Positions 1 through 5,013 of a DNA stretch of 5,013 bases are shown piece by piece. The stretch comes from Melioribacteraceae bacterium (GTDB lineage: Bacteria; Bacteroidota; Ignavibacteria; Ignavibacteriales; Melioribacteraceae), in assembly GCA_015494845.1 (NCBI GenBank), contig WGAL01000415.1, positions 1 through 5,013 of the forward strand, read 5' to 3'. The number at the start of each line of letters is the position of its first letter. Within the stretch, counting starts at the first letter, position 1. The notes beneath the pieces are model-generated. The model made no database searches, was not told where the DNA came from, and saw only the letters and a program-made list of their open reading frames with translations. The translations under genes and the position numbers were made by a program.

Positions 1-27
1 ATGGTATCCTCACGTTATTCAAAGTAA
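1..27 (-). other. Start of the next cassette
   Basis: On the minus strand the sequence after the exchange point reads TTACTTTGAATAACGTGAGG and then ATACCAT. GAGG close to a possible ATG spanning the window edge hints at a gene start, as in the large cassette, but only the CAT-side two bases are inside the window. If this is a cassette, its own attC, further left, should begin with CAAAGTAAC. Confidence 0.35.
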
Positions 28-209
28 CGGCGTCGCTTTTCACCCGTCCGCTTTTGCAATGCTTTAAGAGACGAATTGCCAACGCCTTTTATTGAAAAAT
101 TATTTTACTAACTTGAACAACTTTATAAAAACTACAACCTTGTTACTTACCCAACTTGAAAAACACGCCTCGCGTAAAAGCGGTCGGGTGGAAAAGCGGG
201 TTATATGGC
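20..209 (-). repeat. Long attC-like site ending cassette C
   Basis: On the minus strand it starts with GCCATATAAC and ends with GTTACTTTG. The arms are CGCTTTTCCACCCG-A-CCGCTTTT (198-176) and AAAAGCGG-A-CGGGTGAAAAGCG (51-34 region), pairing over about 21 bp with one mismatch. One extra base (the doubled C of TTCCACCC) lies in the upstream arm. That asymmetry gives the same polarity as the 4509-4595 site. The spacer between arms is about 120 nt, contains no credible ORF, and makes the site about 190 bp, longer than most attC sites. The first core site GTTATATG partner lies in the collapsed attC at 774-781. Confidence 0.8.
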
Positions 210-281
210 GAATGTTTTTTTTCAATTCTTTTGTAAATTATTTATTGATTAAAAAATGAATTGTCAGTTTATGTAGATTAG

Positions 282-623
282 CTACATACAAGAGAGACAA
301 GCCAATAGCTTTACTTTTATTGTTTCATTACTTTTAACCATAACTAGTTTATGATAATAATAACCGGCAGGTCCCGGACCCGGAAGATATGCATTGACAT
401 AATAATCACCTGGTTCAACTTCAAATTTACATATTCCATTTGCATCTGTGTATTTAACCAAGCTATCAGAAGTGACTATAATTTTTTCATTTGGAACTAG
501 AGAGTTGTTTTCATCAACTACCGAAACATAAATTATTCCGGTTTTAACTTTAGTTGGTTCATCATCACAAAATGAAATTAAAATAATTAGGAGAAAAAAT
601 AATAAATAACTAAAATATTTCAT
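282..623 (-). CDS. Putative lipoprotein with a small carboxypeptidase-regulatory-like beta domain
   Basis: The predicted product is 113 residues. Residues 1-18 are a hydrophobic leader (MKYFSYLLFFLLIILISF) followed by Cys19-Asp-Asp. This resembles a lipobox with an acidic +2/+3 region as in Bacteroidota lipoproteins, although Phe at -1 is atypical. Residues about 28-106 look like one beta-sandwich domain of the carboxypeptidase-regulatory/transthyretin-like type: GIIYVSVVDENN, then a turn TDANGICKFEVEPGDYYV and a closing strand ETIKVKL. Such domains commonly occur as extracytoplasmic modules of Bacteroidota surface proteins, but here it stands alone. A CLSC motif lies at the extreme C-terminus (109-112). 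The stop is TAG (284-282), overlapped by a weak 6-bp inverted repeat (271-287). Envelope location is likely; specific function is unknown. It is the only gene of its cassette. Confidence 0.85.
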   Translation of the reverse strand: MKYFSYLLFFLLIILISFCDDEPTKVKTGIIYVSVVDENNSLVPNEKIIVTSDSLVKYTDANGICKFEVEPGDYYVNAYLPGPGPAGYYYHKLVMVKSNETIKVKLLACLSCM

Positions 624-771
624 TTTTTGACCTCATTTATTGGTTAAAAACACTTCTTATTTGCTGACAAATATTGGAAAAACATTGGCAAGCATCTACA
701 TTACTATTAACAAAATAATATTACAATTTGCCAATAAATTATTTTATAAAAATATCTAATTGCTATTCTTA
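624..771 (-). promoter_or_regulatory. AT-rich leader of the lipoprotein gene, likely containing its promoter
   Basis: No gene is seen here. GAGG (634-631) lies 7 nt before the ATG at 623-621 and is a fair ribosome binding site. The stretch is very AT-rich on both strands. On the minus strand AATATTTG misses the Bacteroidota -7 box TAnnTTTG by one base, and TTGGCA-N18-TTAATA is a loose sigma-70-like pair; neither is convincing. The terminator-like hairpin upstream (815-836) makes an internal promoter more likely for this cassette than for the large one. Confidence 0.3.
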
Positions 772-796
772 GCCATATAACGGCGTAGTTAGGCTT
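772..796 (-). repeat. Collapsed attC site between cassettes B and C
   Basis: Minus-strand sequence AAGCCTAAC-TACGCC-GTTATATGGC has both outer core sites (GCCTAAC and GTTATAT) but only about 6 nt between them instead of inverted arms and a spacer. Each core site pairs with the correct partner elsewhere: AAGCCTAAC with GTTAGGCTT at the start of cassette B (4516-4508), and GTTATATGGC with GCCATATAAC of the next attC (about 200-209). The segment ACGCCGTTA also occurs at the 3' end of the attC at 20-209. The simplest reading is an attC that has lost its palindromic middle. Without the arms it should fold and recombine poorly. Confidence 0.62.
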
Positions 797-814
797 TCAA
801 AATTTAAAATTTAT

Positions 815-836
815 GGGGCAAACTTATGCTTGCCCC
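815..836 (-). terminator. Terminator-like hairpin after the interrupted T9SS gene
   Basis: On the minus strand, GGGGCAA and TTGCCCC form a perfect 7-bp stem with an 8-nt loop, followed by ATAAATTTTAAATTTT. It lies 14 nt beyond the TAA at 852-850 and about 20 nt before the attC core. This is a good rho-independent-type terminator, with an interrupted rather than pure T tract. It would limit transcription into the next cassette. Confidence 0.68.
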
Positions 837-849
837 TAAAATTAAAATA

Positions 850-2538
850 TTACTTAGTCAGTATCATCTTTCGAACCGAATTAAACTCACCGCTTTGTAA
901 CCGATAAAAATATAAACCGCTTGGTAAATTGTTTGCATTAAATTTTACAGAATATTTACCGCTTGTTTGTCTTTCGTTTACAAGAACCGCGACTTCTTGT
1001 CCCAATGAATTATACACCGCCAAATTAACAAAACTTTCTTTCGGCAATTGGTAACTTATTGTCGTGCTTGGATTAAACGGGTTCGGGTAATTTGAAAATA
1101 ACGCATACTCGGTTATTTGTTCTTCGCCTTGTGTCGTCGGTTTTTGTAATCCGTAAAATGTAAATTGCACGTAGTTCGTGTAATCGGACAAGTGATTGTG
1201 TTTATCTTTTGCGCGAATCTTATATCTTACCCATCCATTTACGCTTCCCCCGCCAAGCCAAATATCGTTATCTGTAAAACTTGTCGAAGTAGTTGTTGCA
1301 AGCAGCTCCCAATCATCCCAAAAGAATTGATTAACCAGTCGCATTTGACGCCAAACTTCATAATATTGAATATCCGGCTCTTTATTCGATTCCCAAGTTA
1401 ATTTCGGCTTATTGTTGTAGTTCTGTCCGGCAAAAGATTGGGGAGTAATGGGATTTGCGTCATATTGACGATATTCCAAATAAGTTGTTCCCTTCATTAC
1501 AACATATATATCATTTCCGGCGGAGGAAGGAGCAAATAATTTAGACGAACTTGACGACGATATATAACCGCCAAAACTCCACTCGTTGCCGTCAAATTTT
1601 TCATAGGCGATTCAGCTTAAATCATAAAAAACGAACAATTCGTCATTTTCCAACTCCACTGCTTTTGCCGGTTGAGTCGGTTCATAATATGAACTTGTAA
1701 ACATTTCATAATTGCCCCAAGTCGAACCATCTAAATCTCTACTCATTATCCATAATTGAGAATGTATTGGCGAATCGGCGATGTAAGGAATTGAATACAA
1801 TTTTGAGTCGGTAGCGAATATCGATTCAATTCTTGATTCATTTCCCATTATGCTTGGGATTGATTCCGTTGCAAGCCAAGTGTCGGTATCAAGATTTTTA
1901 GCGCGGTTTTTAGGGCCTCCTTCGTTTAAATAAATTTTGCTATTCCAACTCGTGTTATAACCGACATATATCTTATTCCCCGACGCCGTTATGGAAGGAA
2001 AACTGCCGACTTCGCTTGGCGTATAATCTGTTACGTTTTTAAATTTACCTATATTGTTTTGATAATCATACCTTTTGTAAAACACTTCGTGATTGTGCGT
2101 CGAAGAATTATATGTCGTCCAAACTATATGGGTCTCATCATAATGACGCACGACATCTACGCCGTGTAAAGTTTGGTTTGCTCCGATTGAAATACCGGTT
2201 AACGTAGTCCAACTTACGCCTGCGTTTGTTGAGTATTTTGTTTTAATGTAATTACCTTCTTGGTATGTAGCATAAACCTTCCCTCCGTCCGCATCGCCGA
2301 CAATATTGGGGAAATCGCCATTTGAAGAAAGTAAGGCGCTTCTTATTACCGAGCCGGAACTATTAAGCAGATAATACTTTATTTTATTTGACGTTGTTTT
2401 TACCAATAAGTGAACGCCGTCTTTATCGGTAAAGCTTTCGATTTTATCGGCGTCGCTTATTGAAGTCGTTACTATCGAATTCCAACTTTGAGCGCTTAAT
2501 GAAATTGAAAACATAAGAAAGATTATGAACTTTTTCAT
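850..2538 (-). pseudogene. Secreted beta-propeller/Fn3 protein with T9SS sorting domain, split by an in-frame TGA
   Basis: One reading frame of 562 codons is broken by a single TGA at codon 309 (1614-1612). The first part (308 residues) begins with signal peptide MKKFIIFLMFSISLSAQ and continues as a sialidase/BNR-like propeller with a degenerate Asp box STNAGVSW at 103-110. After the TGA the frame continues as sensible protein (IAYEKFDGNEWSFGG), although the next ATG is only at 1497 and has no ribosome binding site. From there come an Fn3-like domain (about codons 363-463: PKLTWES, YYEVWR, YKIRAKD) and a T9SS type A sorting domain (about 480-562: NYPNPFNP, LPSGLYFYRL, ending MILTK). The upstream product would lack its secretion tail and the downstream part lacks a signal peptide, so neither alone should reach the surface. 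Read-through, sequencing error or a recent nonsense mutation all fit. No catalytic residues can be assigned. Confidence 0.85.
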
Positions 2539-2649
2539 ATTTTTACCTCCTAAATTAAATTAGATAATTTGGAGTTTCGGCTTAATAGCGGATGAAACCC
2601 CGCGTAATTGTAGCGTGTTTTTCTTGGTATGAAGATATCTTACAATGTC
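2539..2649 (-). promoter_or_regulatory. Leader of the interrupted T9SS gene, with strong RBS; promoter uncertain
   Basis: AGGAGGT (2551-2545) lies 6 nt upstream of the ATG at 2538-2536 and is the strongest ribosome binding site in the window. The leader is AT-rich with one GC-rich patch that can form a weak GCGG/CCGC hairpin at about 2590-2605. A TACAAT hexamer on the minus strand could be a -10 element, but I see no good -35, and no clear Bacteroidota TTTG/TAnnTTTG pair. Transcription from its own promoter is therefore possible but unsupported. Confidence 0.4.
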
Positions 2650-2687
2650 GGTGGTTTTGTCCGCTTTTTTTAACGAACAAAACCACC
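2650..2687 (-). terminator. Strong intergenic hairpin, candidate terminator after the FG-GAP/VCBS gene
   Basis: GGTGGTTTTGT (2650-2660) and ACAAAACCACC (2677-2687) form a perfect 11-bp stem. Two more CG pairs lie inside it after a single mismatch, around a loop of about 10 nt rich in A on the minus strand. On the minus strand the hairpin is not followed by a T-run, so it may be an mRNA 3'-end stabiliser or an attenuator rather than a classical intrinsic terminator. The plus-strand side is followed by TTTAATAAAATTT, but no plus-strand gene reads into it. Confidence 0.55.
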
Positions 2688-2688
2688 T

Positions 2689-2712
2689 TTAATAAAATTT
2701 ATAGCATGGCAT
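2689..2712 (-). CDS. Possible 7-codon mini-ORF (leader peptide or remnant of a lost gene)
   Basis: Directly after the TAA of the preceding gene (2728-2726) comes AAGGAG (2725-2720), then 7 nt, then an ATG at 2712-2710. The reading gives MPCYKFY and stops with TAA at 2691-2689, 1 nt before the hairpin at 2687-2650. Signal quality matches the real starts in this window, but the ORF is too short to be a conventional gene. It may be a coupled leader peptide, the intact start of a gene deleted further down, or chance. There is no homology evidence. Confidence 0.22.
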   Translation of the reverse strand: MPCYKFY

Positions 2713-2725
2713 AATCAAGCTCCTT

Positions 2726-4486
2726 TTATTTTATTAATAAAGCTTTTATTGTTTTTTCGAACATCCCAAAATTTGTTTTTGCCGATAATTTTATAAAATA
2801 TACCCCGCTCGGAAGCCCCCGTCCGTCAAAATCCTCCTCGTATGTTCCCTTCCTTTGTTTTTCGTTTACCAGTTCACAAACTTTCTCTCCAAGTATGTTG
2901 AATGCAGATAACTTCACAAAACTTTCACTTGGAATTTCATATCTTATTCTTGTCGTCGGATTGAAAGGATTCGGATAATTCTGGCGCAAGTTAAAGTCTG
3001 ATTCCGGCGTATGATTCTCATCCGCAGAGACCAACTCTGTCGGTTTATATACGTATGACTCAACTTTCCCAAAACCTTCTTCGGGACGCGTAGAGGATTT
3101 ACCGTTAATAATAATTTCCTCATATCCGTCATGGTCAAGGTCGTACATTCTTGCGCCATAGATTAATCCCCAATCCTCGTCGTTCGCTTTCGGATTACGC
3201 CAATGGTAGTATAATTCATACGACGGATTATTCGGACTTCCGGTAAACTTAAATATCAGTATGTTTTGATCAACGCACATAAATATTTCTTCTTTCCCGT
3301 CCTTATCTATGTCTATCGGAAACATATTGCCCGCATACCATGAAAACAAATTGTATATATCTATCCTATGAACCGGCTCGTATTGATTGTCTCCGGTTGC
3401 CTCGTAGCACGTAAACCGCGTTATCCCTTGCCCGTTATAAAAGGCGTCGCCACCTATCCAAAACTCATTCTTGCCGTTATCATCTATATCTTGAGTGCTA
3501 AAATGCAAATACACATTGTACGTCCCCACGTCTTCCTCGTGATAAACCAACTCGTATTGGCTTTCTTCGGGTTGATATTCAAAGACAAACAATCCGCCGT
3601 TCATTCCGCCGAATACCAATTCCGGATAACCGTCTCCGTCTATATCTTCCGTCGAGAATCCCTCCCCGTAATACTCTATCGCCCCGTCTAAGGCGTATTC
3701 ATATACTAATTCCATATTATTTATTGCGGAGTTATACTGTGAAATTTGAACATACGGTTGAATGAAATAAATTTGCTCCACAACCCCGTCTTTGTTAAAA
3801 TCCCCGTAGCGATGATTATTGGTCTGATTATGCTCAATGTGTTGAAAATCCAATATTGTCGGCAAATCGTTTTCCGTTTCGTTTTTATAATAATTGCTAG
3901 CCTGAGTATAGACGGAATCTGTCAAACCAATATTAATATAACATATTTGTTTTCTACCATTTCCGTTTATATCATGGACGCCTCCGCAATATCCGCCTAC
4001 CCCTTCCCTCTCAAATGTATATACCGAATCGAAAGTTTCAAGCGAAGGATTAAATTCAAATATCACAAAGTCATTCGCTATCTCTCGACCGTAATACACT
4101 TCGAAAATATGACCGTAGATTTCGGCGTTGCCGTTGTTATTTATATCTTCAATCGGAGACGGCTGAAAACTTTGTCCCGAAATATCGGTGTCGAACCAGA
4201 ACCGATACATTAGATTGTATAGCGAATCGTTTATGTTTGTTATATCTATTTTTGTCGTATCGACGCCTCCCTTTTTTATTTGAGTAATCTCCCCGATGTT
4301 TTTATATCTTATCAAGCCGCTGCGTTTATCCGTAATTTTAACAACATCTTTCACGGAAGACATTTTTTCTATTTTCAGCCAATTGTCTTTTCCGATATTT
4401 TCTAACGATAGGATATTATTTTGCGCAATTGAATTAGTAAATATCATTATATGAAATATTGTTAATAATATTATAACTCTCGTCAT
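2726..4486 (-). CDS. Secreted seven-repeat FG-GAP/VCBS propeller protein with T9SS type A sorting domain
   Basis: The predicted product is 586 residues, exported and probably attached to the cell surface or released. Residues 1-22 form a Sec signal peptide (MTRVIILLTIFHIMIF, then TNSIAQ). Seven calcium-loop motifs follow at regular steps of about 52-59 residues: DINNNGN (114), DINGNGR (172), DFNKDGV (229), DIDGDGY (281), DIDDNGK (333), DIDKDGK (392) and DLDHDGY (449). Most are followed by an E-plus-hydrophobic strand, as in FG-GAP/VCBS repeats, so a seven-bladed calcium-binding propeller is likely. A T9SS type A sorting domain runs from about residue 499 to the end: NLRQNYPNPFNP, then GLPSGVYFIKL, ending in KALLIK. 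In known systems this tail directs outer-membrane passage and is cleaved. No catalytic domain is seen; adhesion or ligand binding is an inference. The gene stands first in the large cassette, with TAA as its stop. Confidence 0.93.
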   Translation of the reverse strand: MTRVIILLTIFHIMIFTNSIAQNNILSLENIGKDNWLKIEKMSSVKDVVKITDKRSGLIRYKNIGEITQIKKGGVDTTKIDITNINDSLYNLMYRFWFDTDISGQSFQPSPIEDINNNGNAEIYGHIFEVYYGREIANDFVIFEFNPSLETFDSVYTFEREGVGGYCGGVHDINGNGRKQICYINIGLTDSVYTQASNYYKNETENDLPTILDFQHIEHNQTNNHRYGDFNKDGVVEQIYFIQPYVQISQYNSAINNMELVYEYALDGAIEYYGEGFSTEDIDGDGYPELVFGGMNGGLFVFEYQPEESQYELVYHEEDVGTYNVYLHFSTQDIDDNGKNEFWIGGDAFYNGQGITRFTCYEATGDNQYEPVHRIDIYNLFSWYAGNMFPIDIDKDGKEEIFMCVDQNILIFKFTGSPNNPSYELYYHWRNPKANDEDWGLIYGARMYDLDHDGYEEIIINGKSSTRPEEGFGKVESYVYKPTELVSADENHTPESDFNLRQNYPNPFNPTTRIRYEIPSESFVKLSAFNILGEKVCELVNEKQRKGTYEEDFDGRGLPSGVYFIKLSAKTNFGMFEKTIKALLIK

Positions 4487-4492
4487 TTCAAA

Positions 4493-4498
4493 CTCCTT
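4493..4498 (-). promoter_or_regulatory. Ribosome binding site fixing the start of the FG-GAP/VCBS gene
   Basis: AAGGAG on the minus strand sits 6 nt before the ATG at 4486-4484. It decides the start: a longer in-frame reading from a GTG at 4528 would begin inside the attC site and place 14 non-signal residues before a good signal peptide. The site lies only 18-23 nt inside the cassette, leaving no space for a promoter between the cassette boundary and the gene. Confidence 0.85.
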
Positions 4499-4508
4499 GA
4501 TTTTTGTA

Positions 4509-4595
4509 AGCCTAACGTCCAGGGTCACTTGCCGCTATGGAGCAAGGCCGAAGGCCGCAGCGGAATGGCGGTCAAGTGCACCCGTTTGTTAGGAC
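4509..4595 (-). repeat. attC recombination site of the first (partial) cassette
   Basis: Read on the minus strand, this begins with core site GTCCTAAC and ends with GTTAGGC, matching the integron consensus RYYYAAC...GTTRRRY. Between them are inverted arms GGGTGCACTTGACCGC (4583-4568) and GCGGCAAGTGACCC (4535-4522). They pair fully except for two extra bases (G and A) in the first arm. Extrahelical bases in the upstream arm are the hallmark that sets attC polarity, so the array reads on the minus strand, with the genes. The central spacer holds a small GGCC-GAA-GGCC hairpin (4546-4556). Total length of about 87 bp is within the usual attC range. The predicted exchange point is between 4516 and 4515. 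The site also forms the upstream edge of the leader of the following gene. Confidence 0.87.
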
Positions 4596-5013
4596 ATTTC
4601 TTTTCTTTCATTGAGTTGATTTAGCCATCTTATAAGCAGCATCTCTATTAAAGAACGGGCTTCAGACAACTGCATTGGTTTATTTGGGGCAGCTGTGGTC
4701 TCTCTTCCATGCCGCGCCTCATCACCAATTGCAGTTGGGCTATTGGCAGTATGTTTGAATCGTTTTATGGATGATTTTGTAGCCCAGCCTTTTTTCACAA
4801 TTTTATCCAATCCCCCAACTGAATCTTCGATAATTTCATAGAGTTTGTATAGTCCGGCCCAAGTATGCCGTTCTTTGCCATAAATTCTTAATGCCCGTTT
4901 TGCAGACTTGTTAGACAAGCCAATAACAAGCCAATCAGGAACACTATCTGCTGGATGTACTTCTTCTATTATTTTTCCTTTAGAATCTTTTATTACTATA
5001 CTAACACTATCTC
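4516..5013 (-). mobile_element. Integron gene cassette A, 5' part missing
   Basis: This is the visible 3' part of a cassette carrying the unrecognised protein ending at 4589 and its attC. Its first attC core site GTCCTAAC predicts that the cassette begins, outside the window, with GTTAGGAC after the exchange point. That prediction can be tested in flanking sequence. Confidence 0.7.
4589..5013 (-). CDS. Cassette-encoded protein of unknown function, 5' end outside the window
   Basis: The minus-strand frame stays open to the right edge, giving at least 140 residues. A TTG at 4918 could serve as a start, but no convincing reason favours it: the 31 codons upstream read as good protein (DSVSIVIKDSKGK, then EEVHPADSVPDW), so the true start is probably beyond 5013. 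There is no signal peptide or membrane segment in the visible part, so it is probably cytoplasmic. The C-terminal half looks alpha-helical and has a pattern I associate with widespread hypothetical proteins: LYKLYEIIEDSVGG, KKGWATKS, then GDEARHG, NKPMQLSEA and a final helix with LLIRWL. An HEPN-like or similar all-helical fold is possible but unproven. The TAA stop (4591-4589) lies within the first core site of the downstream attC, which is typical of compact integron cassettes. I do not assign a function. Confidence 0.72.
   Translation of the reverse strand, partial: DSVSIVIKDSKGKIIEEVHPADSVPDWLVIGLSNKSAKRALRIYGKERHTWAGLYKLYEIIEDSVGGLDKIVKKGWATKSSIKRFKHTANSPTAIGDEARHGRETTAAPNKPMQLSEARSLIEMLLIRWLNQLNERKEMS

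Follow-up and report, generated by a model that had tools for sequence, protein, structure and literature searches.

What holds together a run of genes that all read in one direction and are separated by palindromes ending in short complementary boxes? The question is raised by contig C415, a 5,013-bp piece of a draft genome (1.99 Mb, 444 contigs, 77.9% complete); it was analysed over its whole length and is called the window below. Integrons, which are best known from Proteobacteria and from drug resistance, carry cassettes whose start pairs with the cassette's own R'' box. The original prediction, based on the letters of the window, was that it holds an integron-type cassette array in an Ignavibacteria-like background. 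Our analyses point to the same answer. The window is very probably a stretch of the integron cassette array of a likely Ignavibacteria genome, with two attC sites that match a model (S1 and S3), one site that has no hairpin (S2), and every gene running in the direction of the attC sites. The array is supported by a covariance model built from relatives, by the pairing rule of cassette arrays, by a cassette whose upstream breakpoint in other genomes lies at, or within six bases of, the recombination crossover, and by the presence of the integron integrase IntI in 32 of the 79 genomes of the family.

attC sites of the window

All genes recognised in the window, according to the list of its open reading frames (ORFs), read along the minus strand, and so do its attC sites. 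S1 (22..206, minus strand, 185 bp) stands at the 3' end of cassette 1, between an R'' box ATATAAC (200-206) and an R' box GTTACTT (22-28). Read on the minus strand, it consists of R'', a 2-base spacer, the arm GCTTTTCCACCCGACCGC, a loop, the complementary arm lacking one C (GCTTTTC-ACCCG), a 6-base spacer and R'. Its arms pair with a score of 18.3, against a maximum of 13.6 across 100 dinucleotide shuffles, and they recur in another genus (G009:C4, locus L047) in an array near an integrase gene without internal stop. S3 (4510..4594, minus strand, 85 bp) is of the short type and stands at the 3' end of cassette 3. Folded as DNA, its plus strand reaches -21.3 kcal/mol (z -3.4) and beats 200 of 200 shuffles, the other strand reaching -18.6 (z -2.8). 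The two long imperfect palindromes are real. S3 has two extra bases on its R'' side, and both sites, read on the minus strand and so in gene orientation, have their extrahelical bases next to R''. Box patterns allowing at most one departure from RYYYAAC/GTTRRRY missed S1 and were therefore relaxed. The initial version of the arm score, which took the AAC box as its anchor, did not separate the sites from 40 shuffles and was replaced.

The boxes pair as had been claimed: GTTATATGGC (200-209) is the exact reverse complement of GCCATATAAC (772-781), and GTTAGGCTT (788-796) that of AAGCCTAAC (4508-4516), so that the two cassettes of the window have starts complementary to their own R'' over 10 and 9 bases, respectively. 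Two corrections apply to the three RYYYAAC/GTTRRRY pairs: ATATAAC and GTTACTT of the left site deviate from the strict pattern, and the middle site is 20 bases long. The two partner boxes foreseen outside the window, GTTAGGAC and CAAAGTAAC, would fall at positions beyond the contig ends.

The covariance model was our own and not that of IntegronFinder. From stretches of relatives around integron integrases and attC-like sites we drew 30 candidate attC sites, of which 28 entered the model (five from G075, a genome of the same genus), after a doubtful site and this genome's own had been set aside. With filters off, the best hit of the model in the window was S1, at 57.4 bits (E 2.7e-15), followed by S3 at 24.1 bits (E 2e-5). 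Both hits are on the minus strand and end where predicted: the matches at 22-206 and 4510-4594 answer to sites expected at 20-209 and 4509-4595. At E<=0.001 the model finds sites in 65 of the 79 family genomes, both scattered over many contigs and in arrays. The only other site listed in this genome, on contig C404, scores 68.5 bits. Sites of relatives have like 2- and 6-base spacers and a one-sided extra base, features that were first seen in a scan without such a filter (L038) and that later scans of relatives for attC sites required. Searched with Rfam, the window gave three matches, all far under the gathering scores and none at the attC sites; S3 with its flanks had no match among plasmids.

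Part of the S1 loop (window 80-138) matches sequences of other genera at 81-86% identity (L060, L062, L063 and L067). Two of these four matches lie inside attC sites with other arms, one in a weak truncated site, and that in L063 outside the detected site; loop and stem of attC may evolve apart.

Array organisation in relatives

Pairing of cassette ends was examined across 125 intervals between neighbouring same-strand sites, among them the S1-S3 interval of the window (S2 being ignored and S3 added manually). All four variable bases agree between the cassette start and its own R'' in 95 of these intervals (mean 3.6), against 18 of 125 (mean 2.5) for R'' and R' within one site. The intervals have a median length of 887 bp, and of the 166 cassette ORFs 147 are on the same strand as the attC sites. 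At 164 of 191 sites an ORF of at least 80 aa ends no more than 250 bp upstream, at a median distance of 8 bp. Several relatives have rows of attC sites near IntI genes.

Cassette 1 in other genomes

The mobile unit of cassette 1 (28..780, minus strand, 753 bp) begins at the crossover, 780/781, and extends as far as position 28, the G of the S1 R' box. Window positions 32-786 are 99.7% identical, over 755 bp, to the end of contig G075:C3, from another species of the same genus; cassette 1 and its attC have thus been shared recently. Here the identity stops on one side at the contig end (position 32), and on the other it passes the crossover by five bases (782-786), the ACGCC at the close of the upstream site in both genomes. 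In another genus, positions 180-781 are 85.5% identical over 606 bp to contig G007:C81, the identity beginning at the G/TT crossover (781) and fading in the attC loop on the other side; the encoded proteins share 88% of amino acids across 95 residues. The upstream breakpoint of cassette 1 lies at the crossover or no more than 6 bases from it, and its upstream neighbour differs in each of the window, G075 and G007: in the window it is preceded by the collapsed S2, in G075 by a full attC. In G007:C81 (L064) the model detects no attC 5' of the cassette 1 relative, and a tRNA-Phe gene lies about 220 bp upstream. Insertion at a secondary, attG-like site should leave such an arrangement; cassette insertion at non-attC 'attG' sites is described in PMC12901181. 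At another contig end of G075 there is a 99% copy of S1 (25-182), followed by GTTATGT in place of GTTACTT.

Cassette genes and predicted type IX cargo

The gene of cassette 1 (282..623, minus strand) encodes 113 aa. Judging from its start, the product is a putative exported lipoprotein or small surface protein; it matches PF13620 (carboxypeptidase-regulatory-like) weakly, with an E of 0.0007 that falls short of the cut-off. Cassette 2 (781..4515, minus strand, 3,735 bp, delimited by the GTTAGGCTT and AAGCCTAAC boxes) has two genes, both with tails for the type IX secretion system (T9SS). Gene A (2726..4483, minus strand, 585 aa) combines a signal-peptide-like start, FG-GAP repeats (PF13517, 2.2e-13) and a C-terminal T9SS sorting domain (PF18962, 4.6e-9). 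Gene B (850..2538, minus strand) is a single frame of 563 codons in which an in-frame TGA at 1612-1614 separates the ORFs 1612-2538 and 850-1497; it is either a pseudogene or an assembly error. The 3' piece of gene B carries the sorting domain (PF18962, 1.6e-12) and, like gene A, matches both PF18962 and TIGR04183 above the curated cut-offs (type A sorting domain). Between the two genes, at about 2651-2690, a hairpin with an 11-bp stem (GGTGGTTTTGT/ACAAAACCACC) was found by eye and is perhaps a terminator. Of the cassette 3 gene (4589..5011, minus strand), which is truncated by the contig end, the last 140 aa remain; the protein is of unknown function and has 36 homologues, mostly of 235-244 aa. 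A search of the 79 family genomes with one of the longer homologues (P0001) matched the window only. In the named genome collection one relative was found, a 46% identical protein from a Desulfobulbaceae genome, and no attC was detected beside it.

The background of the window agrees with the original prediction. Among the 120 homologues listed for the 585-aa protein, an organism is named for 11, nine of them assigned to Ignavibacteriales, Ignavibacteriaceae or Ignavibacterium, one to Marinimicrobia and one to 'bacterium BMS3Abin03'. On the basis of these named homologues the host is likely a member of the Ignavibacteria.

An array 'filled' with T9SS-dependent cargo, as first proposed, proved an overstatement: both genes of cassette 2 are tailed, but cassettes 1 and 3 have no tail, and in relatives about 9% of cassette genes have one. 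Tails are nevertheless more frequent in cassettes than beside them. With a profile built from 119 tail sequences, they were found on 15 of 162 cassette ORFs of relatives against 18 of 492 control ORFs that lie in the same stretches but in no detected cassette (odds ratio 2.7, p=0.011), in a comparison where genomes are not independent, the stretches were picked for holding sites or integrases, and the controls may include missed cassettes. Pfam gave 14 of 162 in cassettes; in a sample of 120 of the 492 controls, none longer than 800 aa, the tail family was outside the 25 commonest families, the last of which have 2 members, and thus present at most twice. If one counts instead the genes ending no more than 250 bp upstream of an attC, a tail is present on 16 of 164 (p=0.004 against 18/492), these 164 including the two tail-less genes of the window and the 16 including the gene on C404 of this genome. 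These counts suggest that T9SS tails are commoner in cassettes than in flanking genes, which is the new element here. Tails are also abundant genome-wide, from 47 to at least 150 per genome in 15 genomes. A crude count of signal peptides gave no clear difference between cassettes and flanks (52/156 versus 126/492, p=0.06). Other cassette cargo in relatives comprises ParE-like toxins (6/162), PemK-like toxins, PIN domains and single defence-like proteins.

Two loci illustrate tailed cassettes. In G080, from another family of the order, three consecutive cassettes each end with a T9SS-tail gene (L112, 6552-12247). On C404 (G000:C404, L069), positions 3764-4568 hold a T9SS-tail gene followed by attC and match a cassette end of G073, a genome from a third genus, at 87% identity; this gene has an open frame over its last 109 codons only, though similarity reaches further up.

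Integrase and state of the array

Several results weigh against an integron array in the window. With the default filters, as used for whole genomes or many loci, the model lists S1 and misses S3. The fold energy of S1 is only moderately low (z -1.8, equalled by 11 of 200 shuffles), and the arm score of S3 (11.8) is equalled by 16 hits over 100 shuffles and is not significant alone. S2 obtains 14.6 bits (E 0.013), less than a gene-internal spot at 1955-1994 with 15.4 bits, and therefore needs other support, namely complementarity and the breakpoints common to relatives. Cassette 2 gave short matches in 19 other genomes, at 66-90% identity, and no close DNA match; cassette 3 had no match in 78 other family genomes. 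Mobility is thus shown for cassette 1 only. Finally, no integrase gene was found on the 5-kb contig, as had been noted at the outset, and IntI, defined as a TIGR02249 match above the curated cut-off, appears in none of the five genomes of this genus (this one and four congeners).

The integrase results have a wider context. In a sample of 294 genomes from the class, IntI was present in 52. For this genome the negative is bounded by its 78% completeness and 444 contigs; its best TIGR02249 pieces score 87 and 75 bits with the middle of the model missing, and we read them as XerC/D-type recombinases. In more than 10 relatives no more than a few hundred bases separate IntI from the end of a contig, where assemblies break, so that assemblies may miss it. 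As 65 of the 79 family genomes have attC and 32 have IntI, the family often has attC sites where no integrase was found, nearly complete genomes included. G029, G044, G046, G047 and G034 have 9 to 23 attC sites and no IntI above the cut-off, G029 having 21 sites in an assembly of 8 contigs that is 99% complete. Taken by itself, this 5-kb contig, with at least two attC sites and no integrase found nearby, counts as a cluster of attC sites lacking an integrase (CALIN).

Could the array be a degenerate, immobile remnant, a decaying CALIN whose genus no longer has an integrase? This comes close to an even chance, though it falls a little short of one. IntI is absent above the cut-off from all five genus genomes, yet G075 has 12 attC sites; S2 has no hairpin, gene B has an in-frame stop, and the tailed gene on C404 is open for its last codons only. 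Against decay, the near-identity of cassette 1 and its attC in G075 speaks for recent sharing, S1 and the C404 attC are well preserved at 57.4 and 68.5 bits, and the genomes are drafts in a family whose IntI genes often sit near contig ends.

The middle site

S2 (775..794, minus strand) comprises R'' GCCTAAC (788-794), TACGCC (782-787) and R' GTTATAT (775-781), 20 bases in all, with no hairpin. It retains both outer boxes and the final ACGCC-GTT of the family attC consensus, and is likely a collapsed attC from which the hairpin has gone. Cassettes 1 and 2 are therefore probably fused into one unit and would move only together, via S1.

A pattern search for similarly collapsed sites in the 1.32 Mb of fetched loci (overlaps included) returned the window and two other hits, with none in the reversed control; one hit proved to be the terminal part of an ordinary attC (L099), and the other has a longer spacer (L005, 3443). 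This rarity, with no second site of so short a spacer, and a score for S2 at chance level would fit a different history, in which S2 was never an attC and an illegitimate deletion joined cassettes 1 and 2 at a chance AAC/GTT pair. We consider this unlikely: the end of S2, ACGCC-GTTATAT, is also the end of the full attC that precedes cassette 1 in G075, GTTAGGCTT complements AAGCCTAAC at S3 across 9 bases, and an attC that has lost most of its hairpin exists. The latter (L108, 9763-9798) is an attC-like site of 36 bp with both outer boxes, intermediate between a full attC and S2.

That the palindromes are intergenic repeats resembling attC (of repetitive extragenic palindrome type, or transposon ends) is hardly credible, for although sites are scattered on many contigs besides the arrays, R'' complements its own cassette start better than the R' of its own site, the sites follow ORF ends at a median of 8 bp (164/191), they have one-sided extra bases and 2- and 6-base spacers, and in several relatives they line up close to IntI genes.

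If the window is an integron cassette array, its history may have been as follows. An IntI, supplied in trans or by a chromosomal integron that this genome has lost or its assembly lacks, would recombine the folded bottom strand of attC, here the plus strand, and cassettes would travel as circles joined at G/TT. Loss of the S2 hairpin would have fused cassettes 1 and 2, and cassette 2 would have delivered two ready-tagged genes for predicted T9SS cargo; of these, the second is by now broken, or else misassembled.

Relation to known integrons and meaning

Integrons of Ignavibacteriae are already known: IntegronFinder surveys report complete integrons of Chlorobi and Ignavibacteriae (PMC9024848), the same bacterial group as the likely host. 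Those come from a survey of RefSeq, whereas the window belongs to a draft genome, no integrase was found, and its cassette content is described. CALINs have likewise been reported previously (PMC9668308, PMC12444791). The window differs from a CALIN in the IntegronFinder definition (PMC9024848) in that a 5-kb contig may have a more distant integrase and that one of its three sites is hairpin-less. Partial or total loss of attC yields fused gene cassettes (PMC4670013); cassettes 2 and 1, joined at an apparently hairpin-less attC, resemble these, but in the window no ORFs are fused and the cargo consists of predicted T9SS proteins and a small putative lipoprotein.

Exported cargo is also found elsewhere: signal peptides are over-represented in archaeal cassettes (PMC9668308), while those of Xanthomonas have them in 11.6% of cases and include two type III effectors (PMC12444791). 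Cassettes of both kinds carry exported proteins, while the cargo of the window has a C-terminal type IX sorting domain. No literature linking cassettes with type IX secretion was found by full-text words, titles and abstract starts among open-licence papers. What is new here is the excess of T9SS tails in cassettes over flanking genes.

As cassette 1 recurs in a sister species and cassette 2 carries predicted T9SS proteins, it is likely that relatives exchange surface or secreted proteins through arrays of this kind. More tentatively, and as a possibility that we favour less than not, the Ignavibacteria integron might act as a shuffling platform for the type IX secretome: its cassettes would supply complete surface proteins with C-terminal tags, ready for export by any T9SS host, and lineages lacking IntI, this genus among them, would go on exchanging them as CALIN cassettes. 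The likely Ignavibacteria family, where attC sites are near-ubiquitous (65/79 genomes), now has an attC model of its own, and one cassette has been seen shared between species and genera with its breakpoint at the crossover. If the enrichment in T9SS tails holds, integrons would be a route for the exchange of surface proteins among these bacteria.

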